Positions 5,229-25,965 of a DNA stretch of 64,000 nucleotides are shown piece after piece. Location: the NCBI RefSeq assembly GCF_019375475.1, contig NZ_JAHXGQ010000003.1, positions 372,001-436,000 on the forward strand, in the 5' to 3' direction. The DNA is from Saccharothrix obliqua. GTDB lineage: Bacteria; Actinomycetota; Actinomycetes; Mycobacteriales; Pseudonocardiaceae. Positions within the stretch are counted from its first letter, which is position 1, and every line of letters starts with the position of its first letter. The notes under the pieces are model-generated. The model searched no databases. It saw only the letters and a list, made by a program, of their open reading frames with translations, and was not told the origin of the DNA. The position numbers and the translations under genes were made by a program.

Positions 5229-5297
5229 ATGTCGTGGACGGGGTCGAGGGGCGCGGGTGGTGCCGCGGGTGACGCGGTCCGGCGGGTGCGGTCATGA
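5229..5297 (+). CDS. Short 22-residue upstream reading frame coupled to the prim-pol gene
   Basis: ATG at 5229 follows a strong purine tract (GGAGGGGG, about 6 nt upstream) and encodes MSWTGSRGAGG... ending RVRS. Its TGA at 5295-5297 overlaps the ATG of the prim-pol gene (ATGA). The downstream gene itself has a weak ribosome-binding site, so the arrangement fits a leader peptide that delivers ribosomes by translational coupling. I do not recognise the peptide. It could also be non-functional. Confidence 0.4.
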   Translation: MSWTGSRGAGGAAGDAVRRVRS

Positions 5298-6166
5298 CGC
5301 CCGTGGACGCGGCCCTGGCCGCCGCCGCACGCGGGTGGCACGTCTTCCCGCTCGTGCCGGGCGGCAAGACACCGGTGATCCGGGCGTGGGAGGAGCGGGC
5401 CACCACCGATCCCCGCCTGATCCGCCGGTGGTGGGCCGACCGCCGCCGCAACGTCGGCATCGCCGTCGGCCGGTCCGGCCTGCTGGTGGTCGACCTGGAC
5501 GACGGCCGCGGCGAGCACCCGCCCGAGCGGTTCGCCGGCGCGCGGCACGGTGCGGACGTGCTGGCGCTGCTCGCGGCCGAGGCCGGCGCGCCGGTGCCGC
5601 TCGACACCCACACCGTGGCCACGCCGCGTGGCCGCCACCTCTACTTCCGCGCCCCGGCGGGGGTCGAGCTGCGGAACACGGCGGGCCGGGTGGGGTGGCG
5701 CGTCGACTCCCGCGGCCGCGGCGGCTACGTCGTCGGCGCGGGTTCCCGGCGGCCCGAGGGTGACTACCGGGTGGTCCACCGCGCCCCGGTCGCGGACCTG
5801 CCCGCTTGGCTCGCCGCGGCGTTGGCACCGCCACCGGTCGAACCGGCGCCGCCGATGCGGCTCTCCCGGCGTCGGGCGACGGCGTACCTCCGGGCGATCG
5901 TGGAGGGCGAGGCGCATGCGGTGGCGTCGGCGCGCACCGGGTCGCGGCACGACGCGTTGTTCCGGGCGGCGTGGACGCTCGGTCGGCTGGTCGGCGCGGG
6001 TGAACTGGCCGAGGGCGAGGCGTGGCACGTGTTGCTGGACGCCTCGGCCCGTCACGTCGGCGTGGACGGGTGCACGGCGCGCGAGGTGGAGCGGACCATC
6101 CGGGACGGCATCGCCTACGGCAGGCGGCGACCCCGGTGGATCTCCGCCGACCGCCGCGCTGGCTGA
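5294..6166 (+). CDS. Bifunctional DNA primase/polymerase (prim-pol) N-terminal domain protein
   Basis: 290 residues. The first ~190 match the archaeo-eukaryotic prim-pol fold as found in plasmid and phage replication proteins: ARGWHVFPLVPGGKTP at the N-terminus, the acidic metal-binding strand LLVVDLDDG (around residues 64-72), then HTVATPRGRHLYF and a GGYVVGAGS loop. The C-terminal ~80 residues are helical. There is no helicase domain, so it is a short stand-alone form of the kind often found on actinobacterial chromosomes in relics of mobile elements. Its role in replication or repair is unknown. It sits just left of an IS200/IS605-type element. Confidence 0.85.
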   Translation: MTPVDAALAAAARGWHVFPLVPGGKTPVIRAWEERATTDPRLIRRWWADRRRNVGIAVGRSGLLVVDLDDGRGEHPPERFAGARHGADVLALLAAEAGAPVPLDTHTVATPRGRHLYFRAPAGVELRNTAGRVGWRVDSRGRGGYVVGAGSRRPEGDYRVVHRAPVADLPAWLAAALAPPPVEPAPPMRLSRRRATAYLRAIVEGEAHAVASARTGSRHDALFRAAWTLGRLVGAGELAEGEAWHVLLDASARHVGVDGCTAREVERTIRDGIAYGRRRPRWISADRRAG

Positions 6167-6254: not shown

Positions 6255-6324
6255 GTTAATCGCCGCTACGGAGCCGCCGGTCGTCTTCGCCACCTCTTCC
6301 CGACTATTAGTTGTATAGTGCGTG

Positions 6325-6330
6325 TATAAT
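6325..6330 (+). promoter_or_regulatory. Consensus -10 box (TATAAT) before tnpA
   Basis: A perfect TATAAT in an AT-rich patch. It ends 6 nt before the GTG at 6337, so transcription would begin at or very near the start codon, implying a leaderless tnpA message. I see no good -35 box at normal spacing. Confidence 0.5.
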
Positions 6331-6336
6331 TTTTGG

Positions 6337-6765
6337 GTGGTCACGACCAGGAAGGTGCGTCGGTTCTCCGGTGGCGTGTACGACCTCGGGCTGCACGTGG
6401 TGTGGTGCCCGAAGTACCGCCGTGCGGTGCTGGTCGACCGGGTCGCGGCACGCCTGGACGAGCTGGTCCGCGCCAAGGCGGCCGAGCACGGGTGGGAGGT
6501 CGTCGCGCTGGAGGTGATGCCCGACCACGTGCACCTGTTCGTCAAGCACGACCCGAAGTCGTCGGCGTCGTACGTCGCGAACCAGTTCAAGGGGTTCACC
6601 TCGCGGGCCCTGCGGGAGGAGTTCCCGCACCTGCGGTCCCGGCTGCCGACGCTGTGGTCCTCGTCGTACTTCGCCGCCAGCGTCGGTGCGGTCAGCGCCC
6701 AGACGGTGCAGCAGTACATCGACACCCAGCGGGAACGCCCCTGGCGCAAGGAGCCGGGGTCGTGA
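6337..6765 (+). CDS. tnpA: IS200/IS605-family transposase TnpA (Y1, HUH)
   Basis: About 142 residues from the GTG at 6337 (VVTTRKVRRFSGGVYDLG); an in-frame GTG at 6322 is also possible. The family start, LHVVWCPKYRR, is typical. The metal-binding HUH motif is in MPDHVHLFV and the nucleophilic tyrosine in VQQYIDTQ near the C-terminus. The enzyme cuts and rejoins single-stranded DNA at the element ends through a covalent 5'-phosphotyrosine link. Its stop overlaps the tnpB start by 4 bp (GTGA). There is no sign of decay. Confidence 0.93.
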   Translation: MVTTRKVRRFSGGVYDLGLHVVWCPKYRRAVLVDRVAARLDELVRAKAAEHGWEVVALEVMPDHVHLFVKHDPKSSASYVANQFKGFTSRALREEFPHLRSRLPTLWSSSYFAASVGAVSAQTVQQYIDTQRERPWRKEPGS

Positions 6766-7946
6766 GGCGGACCTACAAGTTCCGGGCTTACCCGACCGGA
6801 CCGCAGGAGGTGCGGGCGGTGCGGCTGTTGCGCGACCACTGCGACCTCTACAACGCAGCGTTGCAGGAGCGCCGCGACGCCTGGCGGCACGTCTCGAAGA
6901 CCACTGTGCGCTACGGCGACCAATCCGCGCAGCTCAAGGAGATCCGCCGGGTCGACCCGACCGGGCAGGGACGGCACTCCTTCACCGCCCAGCAGCAGAC
7001 GCTGCGCCGGGTCGACACGGTGATGGGCTCGTTCTTCGCCAGGGTGAAGACAGGCAAGGCTGGCTACCCGCGGTTCAAGCCCCACAACCGGTTCGACCAG
7101 GTGGTGTTCGTCGACCGAGACGGTGCCAAGTGGAGCCCGGCCGAGCCGGGCGCCCGCTGGGCATTCGCGCGGTTCCAGGCCGTGGGCACGGTCAAGGTCC
7201 GTCAGCACCGTCCGGTGCGCGGCACCGTGAAGACGCTCCAGCTCAAGCGCGAGCACCGACGCTGGTACGTGATCGTCGTCGTGGACGTCGAGCCCGAACC
7301 GCTGCCCGCCGCCGGCCACACCGTCGGCGTGGACGTCGGCGTGGCGAGGTTCCTGACCACCTCCGACGGCCAGGTCGTGGACAACCCGCGGTTCCTGGCC
7401 GCCGCCGCGGGCGACATCGCCGAACTGCAACGCCGCAAGGCCCGCAGCCGACGCGGCTCCGGCAACACCCGGCGTCTGCGCCAAGCCCTGGCCAAACGGT
7501 GGCGCAAGGTCCGCCACCAGCGCCACGACTTCCACCACAAGACCGCCCGCGCCCTCGTCGACGCCTACGACGTGCTCGCGGTCGAAACCCTCAACGTCGC
7601 GGGCATGACCCGCGCCCCGCAACCCCGACCCGACGGCACCGGCGGGTACCTGCCCAACGGCGCCGCCGCCAAGGCCGGACTGAACAAGTCGATCCTCGAC
7701 GCGGGCTGGACCCGGTTCGCGAACACCCTCGTCGCCAAAGCGGAAGAAGCTGGACGACGTGTCGTGTTCGTGAACCCCGCCTACACCAGTATCGACTGCC
7801 ACCGGTGCGGCACCCGCTGCACCCGCCCCCGCCAGGACACCGTCATCTGCCCCCGCTGCGGGCCGATCGACGCCGACCTCAACGGGGCACACAACGTCCA
7901 CACCAGGGCCGGGCTGGGCTCTGGTCACACCGCACCAGCGGCGTGA
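6762..7946 (+). CDS. tnpB: RNA-guided nuclease TnpB
   Basis: 394 residues from the GTG at 6762, a full-length TnpB. It has an N-terminal helix-turn-helix region (RRTYKFRAYPTGPQ), the RuvC-like nuclease motifs GVDVGVARF (Asp), AVETLNVAGM (Glu) and DADLNGAHNV (Asp), and the zinc-binding pair CHRCG...CPRCG. TnpB proteins are the ancestors of Cas12. They use an omega RNA from the element's right end to cut the donor or target site and so help keep the element. All catalytic residues are present. The gene is translationally coupled to tnpA. Confidence 0.93.
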   Translation: MRRTYKFRAYPTGPQEVRAVRLLRDHCDLYNAALQERRDAWRHVSKTTVRYGDQSAQLKEIRRVDPTGQGRHSFTAQQQTLRRVDTVMGSFFARVKTGKAGYPRFKPHNRFDQVVFVDRDGAKWSPAEPGARWAFARFQAVGTVKVRQHRPVRGTVKTLQLKREHRRWYVIVVVDVEPEPLPAAGHTVGVDVGVARFLTTSDGQVVDNPRFLAAAAGDIAELQRRKARSRRGSGNTRRLRQALAKRWRKVRHQRHDFHHKTARALVDAYDVLAVETLNVAGMTRAPQPRPDGTGGYLPNGAAAKAGLNKSILDAGWTRFANTLVAKAEEAGRRVVFVNPAYTSIDCHRCGTRCTRPRQDTVICPRCGPIDADLNGAHNVHTRAGLGSGHTAPAA

Positions 7947-8535: not shown

Positions 8536-9900
8536 ATGCGCAGTGTCGCGCTGGCCTTGGCGATCGTGCTCGCGGGCGGCCAACCCGCCACCGGCATGAC
8601 GGACACCTGGCTCGCCCGCACGTTGTCGGCGGCGGTGAGCACACCGGACGCCATGACGTCGGTCCGGGCGTTCGACGCCATCGCGCGGGCCAACGGTGGC
8701 AACCGCGAAGCGGGACGGCCCGGTTTCGAGCGCTCCCGCGAGCACGTCGAACGGGTACTGACCCGCGCCGGGTACCGCGTCCACACCGAACCCGTGCCGT
8801 ACGAGGGTTTCCGGGTGGACGCGGAGGAGTTGACCGCTCCGGGTGACGTGCGGGTGCTGATGGCGCAGTTCGTGCCGTCGGGCGTGGTCACCGGCCGGCT
8901 GGACCGCGCGGCGGGCGCCGGGTGCGCCGCCACCGACTACCCGGCGGGCGTCGCGATCGCCGTCGTCGCGTCCGGCACGTGCACCAGCGGTGACAAGGCG
9001 ACCGCCGCCCGGGACGCCGGCGCGCGGGCGCTGCTGCTCTACGACGTGTCCCCGGTGCCGGACACCGTCATCCGCCGTCGCGCCACCGGTTCGCCGCTGC
9101 CGGTCGGGTTCGTCAGCCAGCGCGCCGCCGAAGCCCTCACGCCCGGACCCGCGACGCTGGAGCTGCGCGGTCACGCCGTCCAGGACACCACGGTCACCGT
9201 GTTCGCCGAGACCGCCGGCGGCCGGCCGGACCACGTCGTGATGGCGGGCGCGCACCTGGACAGCGGTGCGGACGGGCCCGGTGTCAACGACAACGCCACC
9301 AGCGTGGCGGCGTTGCTGGAGACCGCCGTGCGGCTCGCGCCGCACCAGCGGCAGGTGACCAACAAGGTGCGGTTCGCGTTCTGGGGCGCGGAGGAGCTGG
9401 TGAACCTGGGCTCCACCCACTACGTCGCGACCCGCACGCCGCAGCAGCTCGCCGCGATCCGGCTGTACCTGAACTGGGAGCTGATCGCCTCGCCGAACTA
9501 CGTGCGGTTCGTCGTGGACGGCGACGACAGCGACCACGCGGGTACCGGTGCGCCGCCCGGACCGGCCGGCTCCGGGACCGTCGAGGAGGTGCTGTCCGAC
9601 GGCTACCGCGTGCAGCACCTGCCGTTCCGCACCGCCGACCAGAACGACATCCGGTCCGACCAGGAGCCGTTCGCGCGTGCGGGCGTCCCGGTCGGCGGCG
9701 CGTTCGGCGGGGTGCGCGGCATCAAGACCGCCGAGGAGGCCGCGGTGTTCGGCGGCACGGCCGGGCAGCCGTACGACCCTTGCTACCACCAGCCCTGCGA
9801 CGACCTGTCCAACGTGCACGTGGGCGCGTTGGGCGAGGCGATGCGGGCGATGGCGTGGGCGGTGGGACGTTTCGCCGTCAACGACGACCTGCGGACGTGA
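8536..9900 (+). CDS. Secreted M28-family zinc aminopeptidase
   Basis: 454 residues starting at an ATG with a G-rich ribosome-binding site 5 nt upstream. An N-terminal signal peptide (VALALAIVLAGG) is followed by a PA-like insert (about 100-210) and the M28 catalytic domain. Zinc ligands and catalytic acids are visible in MAGAHLDSGADGPGVNDN, FWGAEELVNLG and CYHQPCDD. The family removes N-terminal residues from peptides outside the cell, as in Streptomyces aminopeptidase S. Its stop lies directly against the ribosome-binding site of the MDYPH pentapeptide gene, so it may share a transcript with that gene and the P450. A role in trimming the peptide is speculation. Confidence 0.9.
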   Translation: MRSVALALAIVLAGGQPATGMTDTWLARTLSAAVSTPDAMTSVRAFDAIARANGGNREAGRPGFERSREHVERVLTRAGYRVHTEPVPYEGFRVDAEELTAPGDVRVLMAQFVPSGVVTGRLDRAAGAGCAATDYPAGVAIAVVASGTCTSGDKATAARDAGARALLLYDVSPVPDTVIRRRATGSPLPVGFVSQRAAEALTPGPATLELRGHAVQDTTVTVFAETAGGRPDHVVMAGAHLDSGADGPGVNDNATSVAALLETAVRLAPHQRQVTNKVRFAFWGAEELVNLGSTHYVATRTPQQLAAIRLYLNWELIASPNYVRFVVDGDDSDHAGTGAPPGPAGSGTVEEVLSDGYRVQHLPFRTADQNDIRSDQEPFARAGVPVGGAFGGVRGIKTAEEAAVFGGTAGQPYDPCYHQPCDDLSNVHVGALGEAMRAMAWAVGRFAVNDDLRT

Positions 9901-9914
9901 AGGGAGGTGCCGTC

Positions 9915-9932
9915 ATGGACTACCCCCACTAG
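9915..9932 (+). CDS. Pentapeptide MDYPH, candidate biarylitide-type RiPP precursor
   Basis: ATG GAC TAC CCC CAC TAG is an 18-bp gene. A near-perfect ribosome-binding site (AGGGAGGTG, 9901-9909) lies 5 nt upstream, far better than chance filler between genes. The peptide fits the M-x-Y-x-H pattern of biarylitide precursors such as MRYYH, which are known as 5-codon genes directly upstream of a cytochrome P450 that cross-links the Tyr side chain to the residue at position 5. A P450 gene starts 63 bp downstream, after a strong hairpin. Asp at position 2 and Pro at position 4 differ from the best-known cores. Family assignment is inference from motif and context. Confidence 0.75.
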   Translation: MDYPH

Positions 9933-9945
9933 TTAGCCGCTGAGG

Positions 9946-9975
9946 GGTGGGGCGCGCGGCTCGGCGCGCCCCACC
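9946..9975 (+). terminator. Perfect hairpin between the pentapeptide and P450 genes
   Basis: GGTGGGGCGCGC (9946-9957) pairs perfectly with 9964-9975 around a 6-nt loop. It lies 13 bp after the pentapeptide stop and 20 bp before the P450 start, with no T-tract. It probably acts as a partial terminator or mRNA-stabilising end that gives more precursor message than enzyme message, a common layout in RiPP operons. Confidence 0.7.
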
Positions 9976-9995
9976 ACGAATCCCTGGAGTCGCAG

Positions 9996-11150
9996 ATGAC
10001 GAGCATCTTCGCCCCGCTGTCGCCCACCATGCTGGCCGACCCGCACGCGGTGTACGCCCGACTGCGCGCGGAGGACCCCGTGCACTGGCACGACCAGCTC
10101 AACGCGTGGGTGGTCACCCGGCACGACGACTGCACGCGCATCCTCAAGGACACGGCGGCGTTCGGCTCCGACCCGCGTGCGCTGGGCAAGCCGATCCCGG
10201 AGACCGTGCTGAGCCTCCAGACCCTCGACCCGCCCGAGCACACCGCCGTGCGGCGGCGGTTCCTGCACCCGTTGCGGGCCCGCGAGGAAGGCGTGTGGGA
10301 CGCGGAGATCCGCCGTGCCGCGCGGGACGTGGTGGCCGGGCTGGGCGAGGTCTCGGACTTCGTGCGCGACGTGGCCGAACCGCTGGCCCTGCACGCCGTG
10401 TGCGTCCTGTACGGCATCCCGTTCCCGGCCGACCACGAGCGGTTCCGCACCGCGTCCCGGACCCTCGTCCTCGGCATGGACGCGGGACTGGACCCCGCTC
10501 GCCGGGAACCCGCCCTGGTCGCCCGCGACGAGATCAACGGCATGATCGCCCGGTGGCGTGCGGACGCCGCGCCCGGCGGCGTGCTGGCCGCCGTCGACCC
10601 CGGCGACGACCGCGTCCTGCGGAACTCGCTGCGCGCGGTGTTCGACGCGGGTTACTCCACGACCAGCAACCTGTTGAGCAACGCGGTGCACCGGCTCACC
10701 GCGCGACGCGCGTGGCGCGGCGCGGAACTGGCCGCGCTGGACGGCCGGGCGGCGGACGAGCTGGTCCGGCTCGCCGGTCCCGTGCAGGCGGTGAGCAGGC
10801 ACTGCAAGGAGGACGTGGAGCTGCGCGGCAGGCGGGTGCGGCGCGGTGACGTGCTGGTGGTCGTGCTCGCGGGCGCGAACCGCGATCCCGAGGTGTTCCC
10901 CGACCCGGACGTCGCGGACTTCGGCCGCAGCCCCAACCCGCACCTCGGGCTCGGCCGCGGCGCGCACGCGTGCTTCGGCGGCCACCTGGGCAAGCAGCTG
11001 CTGCTCGTGCTGCTCGGCGAGCTGTCCCGGCTGGACCTCGTGGAGGCCGCGGGCGAGGCCGTGCTCCGCCCCACCGCCACCCAACGCGGCCTGGACCGCC
11101 TGCCGATCCGGATCCGGCGGGGGAGTGCCGCCACGGCGACTTCTCCCTGA
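9996..11150 (+). CDS. Cytochrome P450, probable biarylitide-type peptide cross-linking enzyme
   Basis: 384 residues from an ATG with CTGGAG 7 nt upstream. The bacterial CYP fold is complete: the ExxR-containing region is weak, but the heme-binding loop LGLGRGAHACFGGH supplies the Cys ligand (around residue 326). The I-helix reads FDAGYSTTSN, so the usual acid of the (A/G)Gx(D/E)T proton relay is Ser. The N-terminus (PHAVYARLRAEDPVHWHD) is typical of small-molecule or peptide P450s. Given the upstream MDYPH gene, I infer that it forms a Tyr-His (or Tyr-other) ring cross-link on the pentapeptide. Redox partners are not encoded nearby. Confidence 0.82.
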   Translation: MTSIFAPLSPTMLADPHAVYARLRAEDPVHWHDQLNAWVVTRHDDCTRILKDTAAFGSDPRALGKPIPETVLSLQTLDPPEHTAVRRRFLHPLRAREEGVWDAEIRRAARDVVAGLGEVSDFVRDVAEPLALHAVCVLYGIPFPADHERFRTASRTLVLGMDAGLDPARREPALVARDEINGMIARWRADAAPGGVLAAVDPGDDRVLRNSLRAVFDAGYSTTSNLLSNAVHRLTARRAWRGAELAALDGRAADELVRLAGPVQAVSRHCKEDVELRGRRVRRGDVLVVVLAGANRDPEVFPDPDVADFGRSPNPHLGLGRGAHACFGGHLGKQLLLVLLGELSRLDLVEAAGEAVLRPTATQRGLDRLPIRIRRGSAATATSP

Positions 11151-24756: not shown

Positions 24757-25965
24757 TCACCACTGGAGTGGCAGTGCGGCCAGGCCGTAGGTCGCCGACA
24801 GCGACTGGAACCGGACCTCTTCGAACGGGACCCCGAGCCGCAGCTCCGGGAACCGCCGCAGAACCTGGCCGAGCACGGTGCGCAACTGGAGCCGTGCCAG
24901 TGCCGCGCCGGCGCAGTAGTGGATGCCGTGGCCGAAGGCGAGGTGGGCGGTCGGCTCACGGGTGACGTCGAACCGGTCCGCGTCGGCCAGGTAGTCGGGA
25001 TCGCGGTTGCCGGAGGGGAAAGCACACATCAGCCACTCGCCGGCGCGGATGGGCACGCCCGCGACCTCGGTGTCCACCACGGCGCTCAGCACCACGCCGT
25101 AGTGGACGACGGTGAGGTAGCGCAGCAGCTCCTCCACGGCGCGCCTGGCCAGTGCCGGTCGCGCACGCACCAGCGCGGCCTGCTCGGGGTGGCGCAGCAA
25201 CAACAGCAGACCGAGGCCCAGCATGTTGGCGGTGGTCTCGTGCCCCGCCAGCAGCAGCAGGTTGGCCGTGCCGGCCAGCTCGGCGTCGGTGAAGTCCTCG
25301 CCGTGGTCGCGCACGAGCCTGCCGACGAGGCCCGGACCGGGGGCGTTCCGGTGGCCGCGGACCAGCTCGGCCATGTACTGGCCCATCTCGGTGAAGTTCG
25401 CGGCCTGCTGCTCGGGGGTGGTGGTGAGGTCGAACAGGCGCTCGGCCCGCCGGCGGAACGCGGGCCGGCCACCACGCGGGACGCCGAGCAGCTCGCAGAT
25501 CACCGACGAGGTCACCGGGTGGGCGACCGAGGCCATGAAGTCCGCACCCGGTCCCCGCGCGGCGAACGCGTCGAGGTGCTCGGCGCAGATCCGCTCGACG
25601 CGGTCCGCGAGCCGGTTCACCCGGCGCACCCCCAGTTCACGTGCTATCGCACGCCGGTAGCGACCGTGGTCAGGTGGGTCGTAGGCGACGAAGAAACCGG
25701 GCTGTGCGGCGGGTACGCGTCCCTCGGCGTCCCGCGGCGGCGGGATCGGGCCCGCACCCGCGACGGCGTTGCTGAAGCCGGCCGGGTCGCCCAGCACGCG
25801 GAGGATGTCGGCGTGCCTGGTCACCACCCACGCCTCGTCGCCGGTCGGCAGGGTGGTCCGGAACACGGGTTCCTCGGCGCGCAGGCGGGCGAACTCCTCG
25901 GCGGGGGAGAACGGGCACGTGCGCCCACGGCGCAGCGGCAGCATCGGTTCGGCGGTCGTCGTCAC
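24757..25965 (-). CDS. Cytochrome P450 in the hybrid NRPS-PKS operon
   Basis: 402 residues from the GTG at 25965, whose GTGA overlaps the thioesterase stop. Complete bacterial P450: I-helix LLLAGHETTANML with the normal acid-alcohol pair, the ExxR-type helix in AVEELLRYL, and the heme loop FGHGIHYCAGAALARLQL. It resembles Streptomyces CYP105/107-type hydroxylases of secondary metabolism. It likely oxidises the PKS product or a carrier-bound intermediate. It sits directly after the thioesterase gene in the same overlapping operon. Confidence 0.92.
   Translation of the reverse strand: MTTTAEPMLPLRRGRTCPFSPAEEFARLRAEEPVFRTTLPTGDEAWVVTRHADILRVLGDPAGFSNAVAGAGPIPPPRDAEGRVPAAQPGFFVAYDPPDHGRYRRAIARELGVRRVNRLADRVERICAEHLDAFAARGPGADFMASVAHPVTSSVICELLGVPRGGRPAFRRRAERLFDLTTTPEQQAANFTEMGQYMAELVRGHRNAPGPGLVGRLVRDHGEDFTDAELAGTANLLLLAGHETTANMLGLGLLLLLRHPEQAALVRARPALARRAVEELLRYLTVVHYGVVLSAVVDTEVAGVPIRAGEWLMCAFPSGNRDPDYLADADRFDVTREPTAHLAFGHGIHYCAGAALARLQLRTVLGQVLRRFPELRLGVPFEEVRFQSLSATYGLAALPLQW

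Follow-up and report, generated by a model that had tools for sequence, protein, structure and literature searches.

Biarylitides are known from 18-bp genes and from 277 published clusters (PMC13417212), and the characterised clusters carry, according to PMC12951456, no dedicated protease for the leader. There is some precedent for a clustered peptidase: ProTM32, a clustered prolyl oligopeptidase, removes the leader in vitro (PMC12951456), and the rufomycin pathway includes an aminopeptidase, RufB (PMC12186263). Leader removal is a step without an assigned enzyme in most biarylitide pathways, and a subfamily of M28 peptidases with an LNxE motif now supplies a candidate.

We report the analysis of a locus of Saccharothrix obliqua in which an M28 aminopeptidase gene, an 18-bp gene for the pentapeptide MDYPH and a cytochrome P450 gene follow one another on the same strand (Table 1). 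The window referred to throughout is the whole 64-kb stretch of DNA that was analysed. Judged by the genes, their conservation, their linkage and their motifs, all of which are read from the sequence, the trio is probably a three-gene biarylitide-type RiPP cassette, in which MDYPH would be cross-linked by the P450 and its leader trimmed by the exported M28 enzyme. It has the appearance of a minimal natural-product pathway for a peptide, complete with a candidate leader-removing enzyme of its own, and it recurs in several actinobacteria. The main interest of the locus shifts from its Pro4 core to the peptidase.

Table 1. Positions of the cassette features within the window
Feature	Position	Strand	Remarks
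M28 (Zn) aminopeptidase, PA domain, signal-peptide-like N-terminus	8536..9900	+	454 aa; Glu315 where paralogues have Asp; stop 14 bp 5' of the pentapeptide ATG
RBS of pentapeptide gene, GGGAGGTG	9902-9909	+	inside the 14 bp that separate the M28 stop from the ATG; similar site in orthologues
Precursor gene MDYPH, ATGGACTACCCCCACTAG	9915..9932	+	18 bp; leader MD and core YPH by biarylitide analogy
GC-rich hairpin	9947..9974	+	11-bp perfect stem, 6-nt loop, no T-run
Biarylitide-type cytochrome P450	9996..11150 (stop included)	+	384 aa; I-helix FDAGYST; haem Cys326

The precursor gene and its conservation

A sequence-only reading of the window had proposed a five-codon MDYPH gene with a good ribosome-binding site (RBS) and a P450 63 bp later. 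The sequence is as it claimed: the codons are ATG GAC TAC CCC CAC TAG and the TAG lies 63 bp before the P450 ATG at 9996. Gene content and coordinates were correct, but the interval given (9901-11150) omitted the upstream M28 gene of the same unit. The product agrees with the definition of a biarylitide precursor in having five residues, aromatic residues at positions 3 and 5, and an RBS of its own, RBS calls here being motif-based judgements rather than the output of a dedicated predictor. The pattern RTG-N3-TAY-N3-CAY-TAG matches once in the window against 0.01 matches expected from 100 shuffles, and a scan for GGAGG 3-10 bases 5' of the pentapeptide pattern, restricted to ATG starts and TAG stops, finds this site only in the 8.04-Mb assembly, the reversed-pattern control giving no match.

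Conservation across genomes is stronger evidence for a real gene than the rarity of the pattern. The P450 occurs at 68% identity or more in nine of 25 Saccharothrix genomes, our own included (68-83% in the other eight), and a pentapeptide precedes it in all nine: MDYPH in five, DYPH with a GTG start in one, and MYYVH, MYYLH and MFYVH in one each. The sequence-only reading had staked its case on near homologues of the P450 keeping such a gene, and all eight of the other genus orthologues do, 59-70 bp 5' of the P450. Two other genera also have MDYPH in front of a P450 of 56% identity, in Nocardia panacis (L043) and G261 (L118), and a further locus outside Saccharothrix (L120, in G386) has MSYIH. 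Altogether DYPH is found in eight of the 12 loci of the P450 clade described below, with synonymous as well as start- and stop-codon differences among them. It is therefore extremely improbable that the MDYPH frame is an accident of spacer sequence: an 18-bp frame is short, but this is the single such site in the genome and it is kept across genera with synonymous changes; conservation in orthologues and the unique pattern match led us to rule this explanation out. Position 4 is Val or Leu in three orthologues whose P450 shares the I-helix signature and, with the Ile of MSYIH, this means that Pro4, which the sequence-only reading had suggested could give a new ring geometry, is not obligatory for the clade.

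The precursors of remoter relatives include MRYVH, MRYIH, MNYLH and MFYDH, amongst others. A census was made of 42 loci with relatives of the P450, leaving out L039-L042, whose contigs had already been counted among the genus genomes. A peptide lies within 500 bp upstream in 28 of these; in three a pentapeptide (MSYDH, MTYVH or MKYWH) lies on the downstream side, within about 1.2 kb of the P450 start, a heptapeptide (MTYNHIV, MLYDHIA or MSYDHIS) takes its place in another three, and no precursor was found in eight. The RBS test used for these loci was broad and admitted GGGG; the site of the Nocardia panacis locus fails a stricter one. The heptapeptides, from Cellulomonas, Arthrobacter and Actinokineospora (L053-L055), lie 95-154 bp 5' of the P450 and possibly represent MxYxH cores extended by two residues at the C-terminus. 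Beside the biarylitide-like P450s of L044, L045, L046, L048, L056, L124 and L134 no precursor of 5-9 residues was found in the stretches searched, the contig of L048 beginning only 370 bp before the P450 match.

Amongst 19 control P450 loci of the genus, 16 have no pentapeptide in their 1.5-kb flanks. The other three (L020-L022) have one downstream and are therefore biarylitide-type too. In L021 and L022, from two Saccharothrix genomes, the peptides are MRHVH and MRHLH, with His-x-His cores and an RBS, about +1190 from the P450 start, and L020 has MRYLH at the matching position.

The cytochrome P450

The ten best PDB sequences for the P450 have E values from 1e-88 to 3e-76, the next match falling to 1.8e-35, and RufO (8SPP, 9DUJ, 9EBY) and P450Blt (8U2M), named as in PMC12186263, are among those ten. 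Because these nearest solved structures stand far apart from other P450s, the enzyme is classed as biarylitide-type. The PDB matches thus bear out the earlier proposal of a biarylitide-type RiPP with a precursor and a putative cross-linking P450; its description as a two-gene system has to be widened, the M28 gene also belonging to the conserved cassette. A small-molecule hydroxylase was rejected, as no NCBIfam model reaches its cut-off (the best, TIGR04515, scores 134 of 343 bits) and the nearest structures are biarylitide-type. A second cytochrome P450 gene lies elsewhere in the window (24760-25965, minus strand).

In a P450 tree rooted at the midpoint only, and in which L126 is a long branch, the enzymes of 12 loci (the nine of Saccharothrix, L043, L118 and L120) form one clade with support of 100/100. 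The sister clade holds MRYVH and MRYYH loci with the I-helix residues V, S, S. As SavB and BytO, which act on MRYVH and MRYYH, form C-C links (PMC13417212), our guess is that the link made here is likewise C-C.

The active-site residues were compared by alignment, that to RufO assuming an inferred chain-number offset of two. Val158 aligns with Val169 of P450Blt and Asp169 of RufO, Asp217 with His234 and His235, Ser221 with Glu238 and Glu239, and Thr222 with Ser239 and Val240, respectively, the hydroxyl of the last being kept as in P450Blt. The I-helix residues His234, Glu238 and Ser239 of P450Blt are thus absent, as are Asp169 and Val240 of RufO. All 12 members of the clade have Asp217 and Ser221, and all except L120, which has Ser instead, have Thr222; this active site with Asp217 is unlike both of the published types compared. 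Since Asp217 and Ser221 replace His234 and Glu238, the reaction could differ, which counts against cross-linking; the loci of the C-C type also depart from P450Blt (V, S, S), however, so that the I-helix trio separates subtypes rather than deciding membership.

The altered I helix also bears on a different reading, in which the P450 makes some other change to MDYPH, nitrating or hydroxylating Tyr3 for instance, and the altered residue is then freed by the M28 enzyme to serve as a building block. RufO and RufB of the rufomycin pathway provide a precedent (PMC12186263), but Val158 and Thr222 are not RufO-like, a RufO-type signature (FHAGFEV, with an Asp aligned to Val158) being seen instead in L133, and Pfam finds no NO synthase or NRPS match among the neighbours (12 window proteins). 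We regard this reading as improbable and reject RufO-like nitration, which the two residues do not fit. L133, from G432, has no pentapeptide within 500 bp upstream.

The hairpin between precursor and P450

A perfect stem of 11-18 bp begins 8-29 nt after the stop codon in every one of the 28 loci whose peptide lies upstream, while a stem of at least 11 bp is found in only two of 38 control windows. These controls precede other P450s without following a stop codon, which makes the match imperfect, and three of the 19 control loci (L020-L022) are the biarylitide-type ones with a downstream pentapeptide. The hairpin has z < -3 in 21 of the 28 loci (z = -2.1 in the window itself), and its stem sequences vary widely among distant loci. 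A classical terminator was rejected, the hairpin having no T-run; we infer a partial terminator or a 3' stabiliser that would raise the precursor over the enzyme. A hairpin after the pentapeptide also offers a second handle for searches.

The M28 aminopeptidase and its linkage to the P450

The upstream protein matches PF04389 (2.7e-38; 132 bits, cut-off 21.3) and PF02225 (2.7e-10) and keeps the M28 metal-site motifs (His, Asp, Glu-Glu, Cys-Tyr-His), with one Asp replaced by Glu. Keratinase KP1 also has the Asp that is replaced here, which we take to be the zinc-binding Asp160 of the S. griseus enzyme. Orthologues of at least 71% identity occur in ten of the 25 genus genomes, namely the nine with the cassette and G021, the next-closest M28 of the genus being 43% identical, and in all nine Saccharothrix cassette loci the gene lies directly upstream of the pentapeptide. 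In G021 (L087) it abuts a decayed C-terminal P450 fragment (6486-6701, 42% over residues 305-377), no peptide pattern is left beside the intact-looking M28 gene, and the pathway seems to have been lost.

In 20 of the 42 loci an M28 gene lies no more than about 2.9 kb from the start of the P450, and all 20 have a pentapeptide. It is upstream on the same strand in nine (all Saccharothrix), downstream on the same strand in nine and downstream on the opposite strand in two; the P450 and M28 genes share 4 bp in Nocardia panacis and have MTYVH between them in L126. These 20 M28 proteins and the G021 relic form one clade (100/100) in a tree of 51 rows. All 21 have a hydrophobic, signal-peptide-like N-terminus and Glu (LNxE) in place of the Asp (LNFD) of 30 of 30 paralogues, the latter hand-picked from the search matches and both judgements being motif-based, with no dedicated predictors. 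The linked P450s, on the other hand, fall in three parts of their tree, with at least four changes forced by well-supported branches, which implies repeated gain or loss of the pairing.

A profile search for M28 proteins in two genome samples (397 and 394) shows a step in score, from at least 557 bits in the clade to at most 442 in the rest, the exception being a divergent copy in G064 (428 bits). The motif was checked in 58 loci fetched from among the M28 matches (L145 included), of which nine have Glu, 46 have Asp and three were not parsed; all nine Glu-type proteins adjoin a biarylitide-type P450. Conversely, in two sets of 11 and nine genomes with a P450 match at 1e-90, our own genome being counted in both, seven and three have an adjoining M28, which is thus a common though not a universal companion.

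The surroundings of the cassette are less constant. In six of the eight other genus loci the M28 and P450 are shared and no other window protein matches at 1e-10; G007 shares many of the window neighbours and G014 some. Genes for SnoaL, MoaF-like and aldehyde dehydrogenase proteins downstream of the cassette are common to G007 and G021 but missing from most other cassette loci, and a wider gene cluster that includes them was therefore rejected. Just upstream of the cassette is an IS200/IS605-type element (6322-7943) with a Y1 transposase and a TnpB (OrfB_IS605, Cas12f1-like TNB), and a Prim-Pol domain protein is encoded at 5294-6163.

We read the M28 enzyme as the dedicated leader peptidase of the cassette, a candidate role. 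It might instead be a bystander hydrolase, the precursor being matured by a housekeeping peptidase as is assumed for other biarylitides, for which a generic protease has been proposed (PMC8708641). No M28 was found within the fetched flanks of 22 of the 42 loci, so it is not universal, which counts against the three-gene reading, and ProTM32 and RufB indicate that other kinds of peptidase can serve. Three gene orders, one dedicated M28 clade, the constant company of a P450 beside the Glu-type enzymes and the variation of the other neighbours from locus to locus nevertheless make a bystander hard to credit.

A third possibility is that the M28 is a putative target or self-resistance copy, the cyclic tripeptide inhibiting the secreted metallo-aminopeptidases of neighbours and the Glu-type enzyme being resistant. 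OF4949 and K-13, both biaryl tripeptides, are inhibitors of aminopeptidase B and ACE (PMC13192836), the linked enzymes differ from every sampled paralogue at a metal-site position, and no biological role is known for biarylitides (PMC13417212). A resistance copy need not stand directly before the precursor, however, and in G021 the M28 persists without a peptide; we consider this explanation unlikely. It is a speculative extension, to which we give little weight, that this branch makes inhibitors or signals around secreted metallo-aminopeptidases, combining a cyclic YxH with an altered, product-insensitive M28 that trims outside the cell. Were it true, it would give biarylitides a first biological role together with a maturation step outside the cell.

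Proposed pathway

For the three-gene cassette we propose the following course, in which the chemical steps, the export, the shared transcript and the role of the hairpin are all deduced from gene arrangement and precedent. MDYPH would be translated from a transcript shared with its neighbours, on which the hairpin may keep the precursor mRNA above that of the P450. The cytosolic P450 would join the side chains of Tyr3 and His5, with a C-C link as our guess, and the cross-linked pentapeptide would leave the cell. There the exported M28 enzyme would remove Met1 and Asp2 and halt at Tyr3, where the ring, together in this case with the Tyr-Pro bond, would stand in the way of further trimming. Pro4 would contribute a bond of a kind that aminopeptidases in general leave uncut. 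The mature product would be cyclic YPH with a calculated [M+H]+ of 414.177, in agreement with the value of about 414.18 put forward earlier. An exported peptidase requires export of the pentapeptide, and no transporter gene is common to the loci compared, which counts against the three-gene reading.

The M28 reading predicts maturation outside the cell, and the LNxE enzyme provides a search handle that is independent of the 18-bp gene; it led to the downstream MTYVH of L126. The clade also offers a P450 active site unlike the published types compared, and Pro-containing cores.

Comparison with known systems

In the literature searched, no paper pairs 'biarylitide' with M28, YPH or MDYPH, and no exported M28 clade tied to a precursor gene was found. 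The strings MDY, YPH, peptidase and M28 do not occur in the main text of PMC13417212; MDYPH may be listed in a published table.

The closest described systems are the biarylitides BytA/BytO and SavAB, the latter from Saccharothrix variisporea with the precursor MRYVH, which have in common with our locus an 18-bp gene, the MxYxH pattern and an adjacent P450 of the same group (PMC13417212). They differ from it in that here the core is YPH with Asp2, the P450 belongs to a separate clade (FDAGYST) and an M28 gene is part of the cassette. Myxarylin of Pyxidicoccus (MNYLH; BytO, BytZ) has the same layout of peptide then P450, the latter 40-41% identical (L051, L052), and the same kind of hairpin after the peptide, but a methyltransferase where the cassette has the M28, its leader removal being ascribed to a prolyl oligopeptidase in vitro (PMC12951456). 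RufO and RufB of rufomycin share with it an 18-bp gene, a related P450 and a pathway aminopeptidase, but there the Tyr is nitrated and the peptide destroyed to give 3-nitro-Tyr (PMC12186263), and the key P450 residues differ. The Streptomyces griseus aminopeptidase (1cp7, 4.8e-46) and Keratinase KP1 (8ac9, 3.3e-71) belong to the same M28 family, from which the cassette enzyme is set apart by LNxE in place of LNFD and by its place in a distinct clade tied to biarylitide loci.
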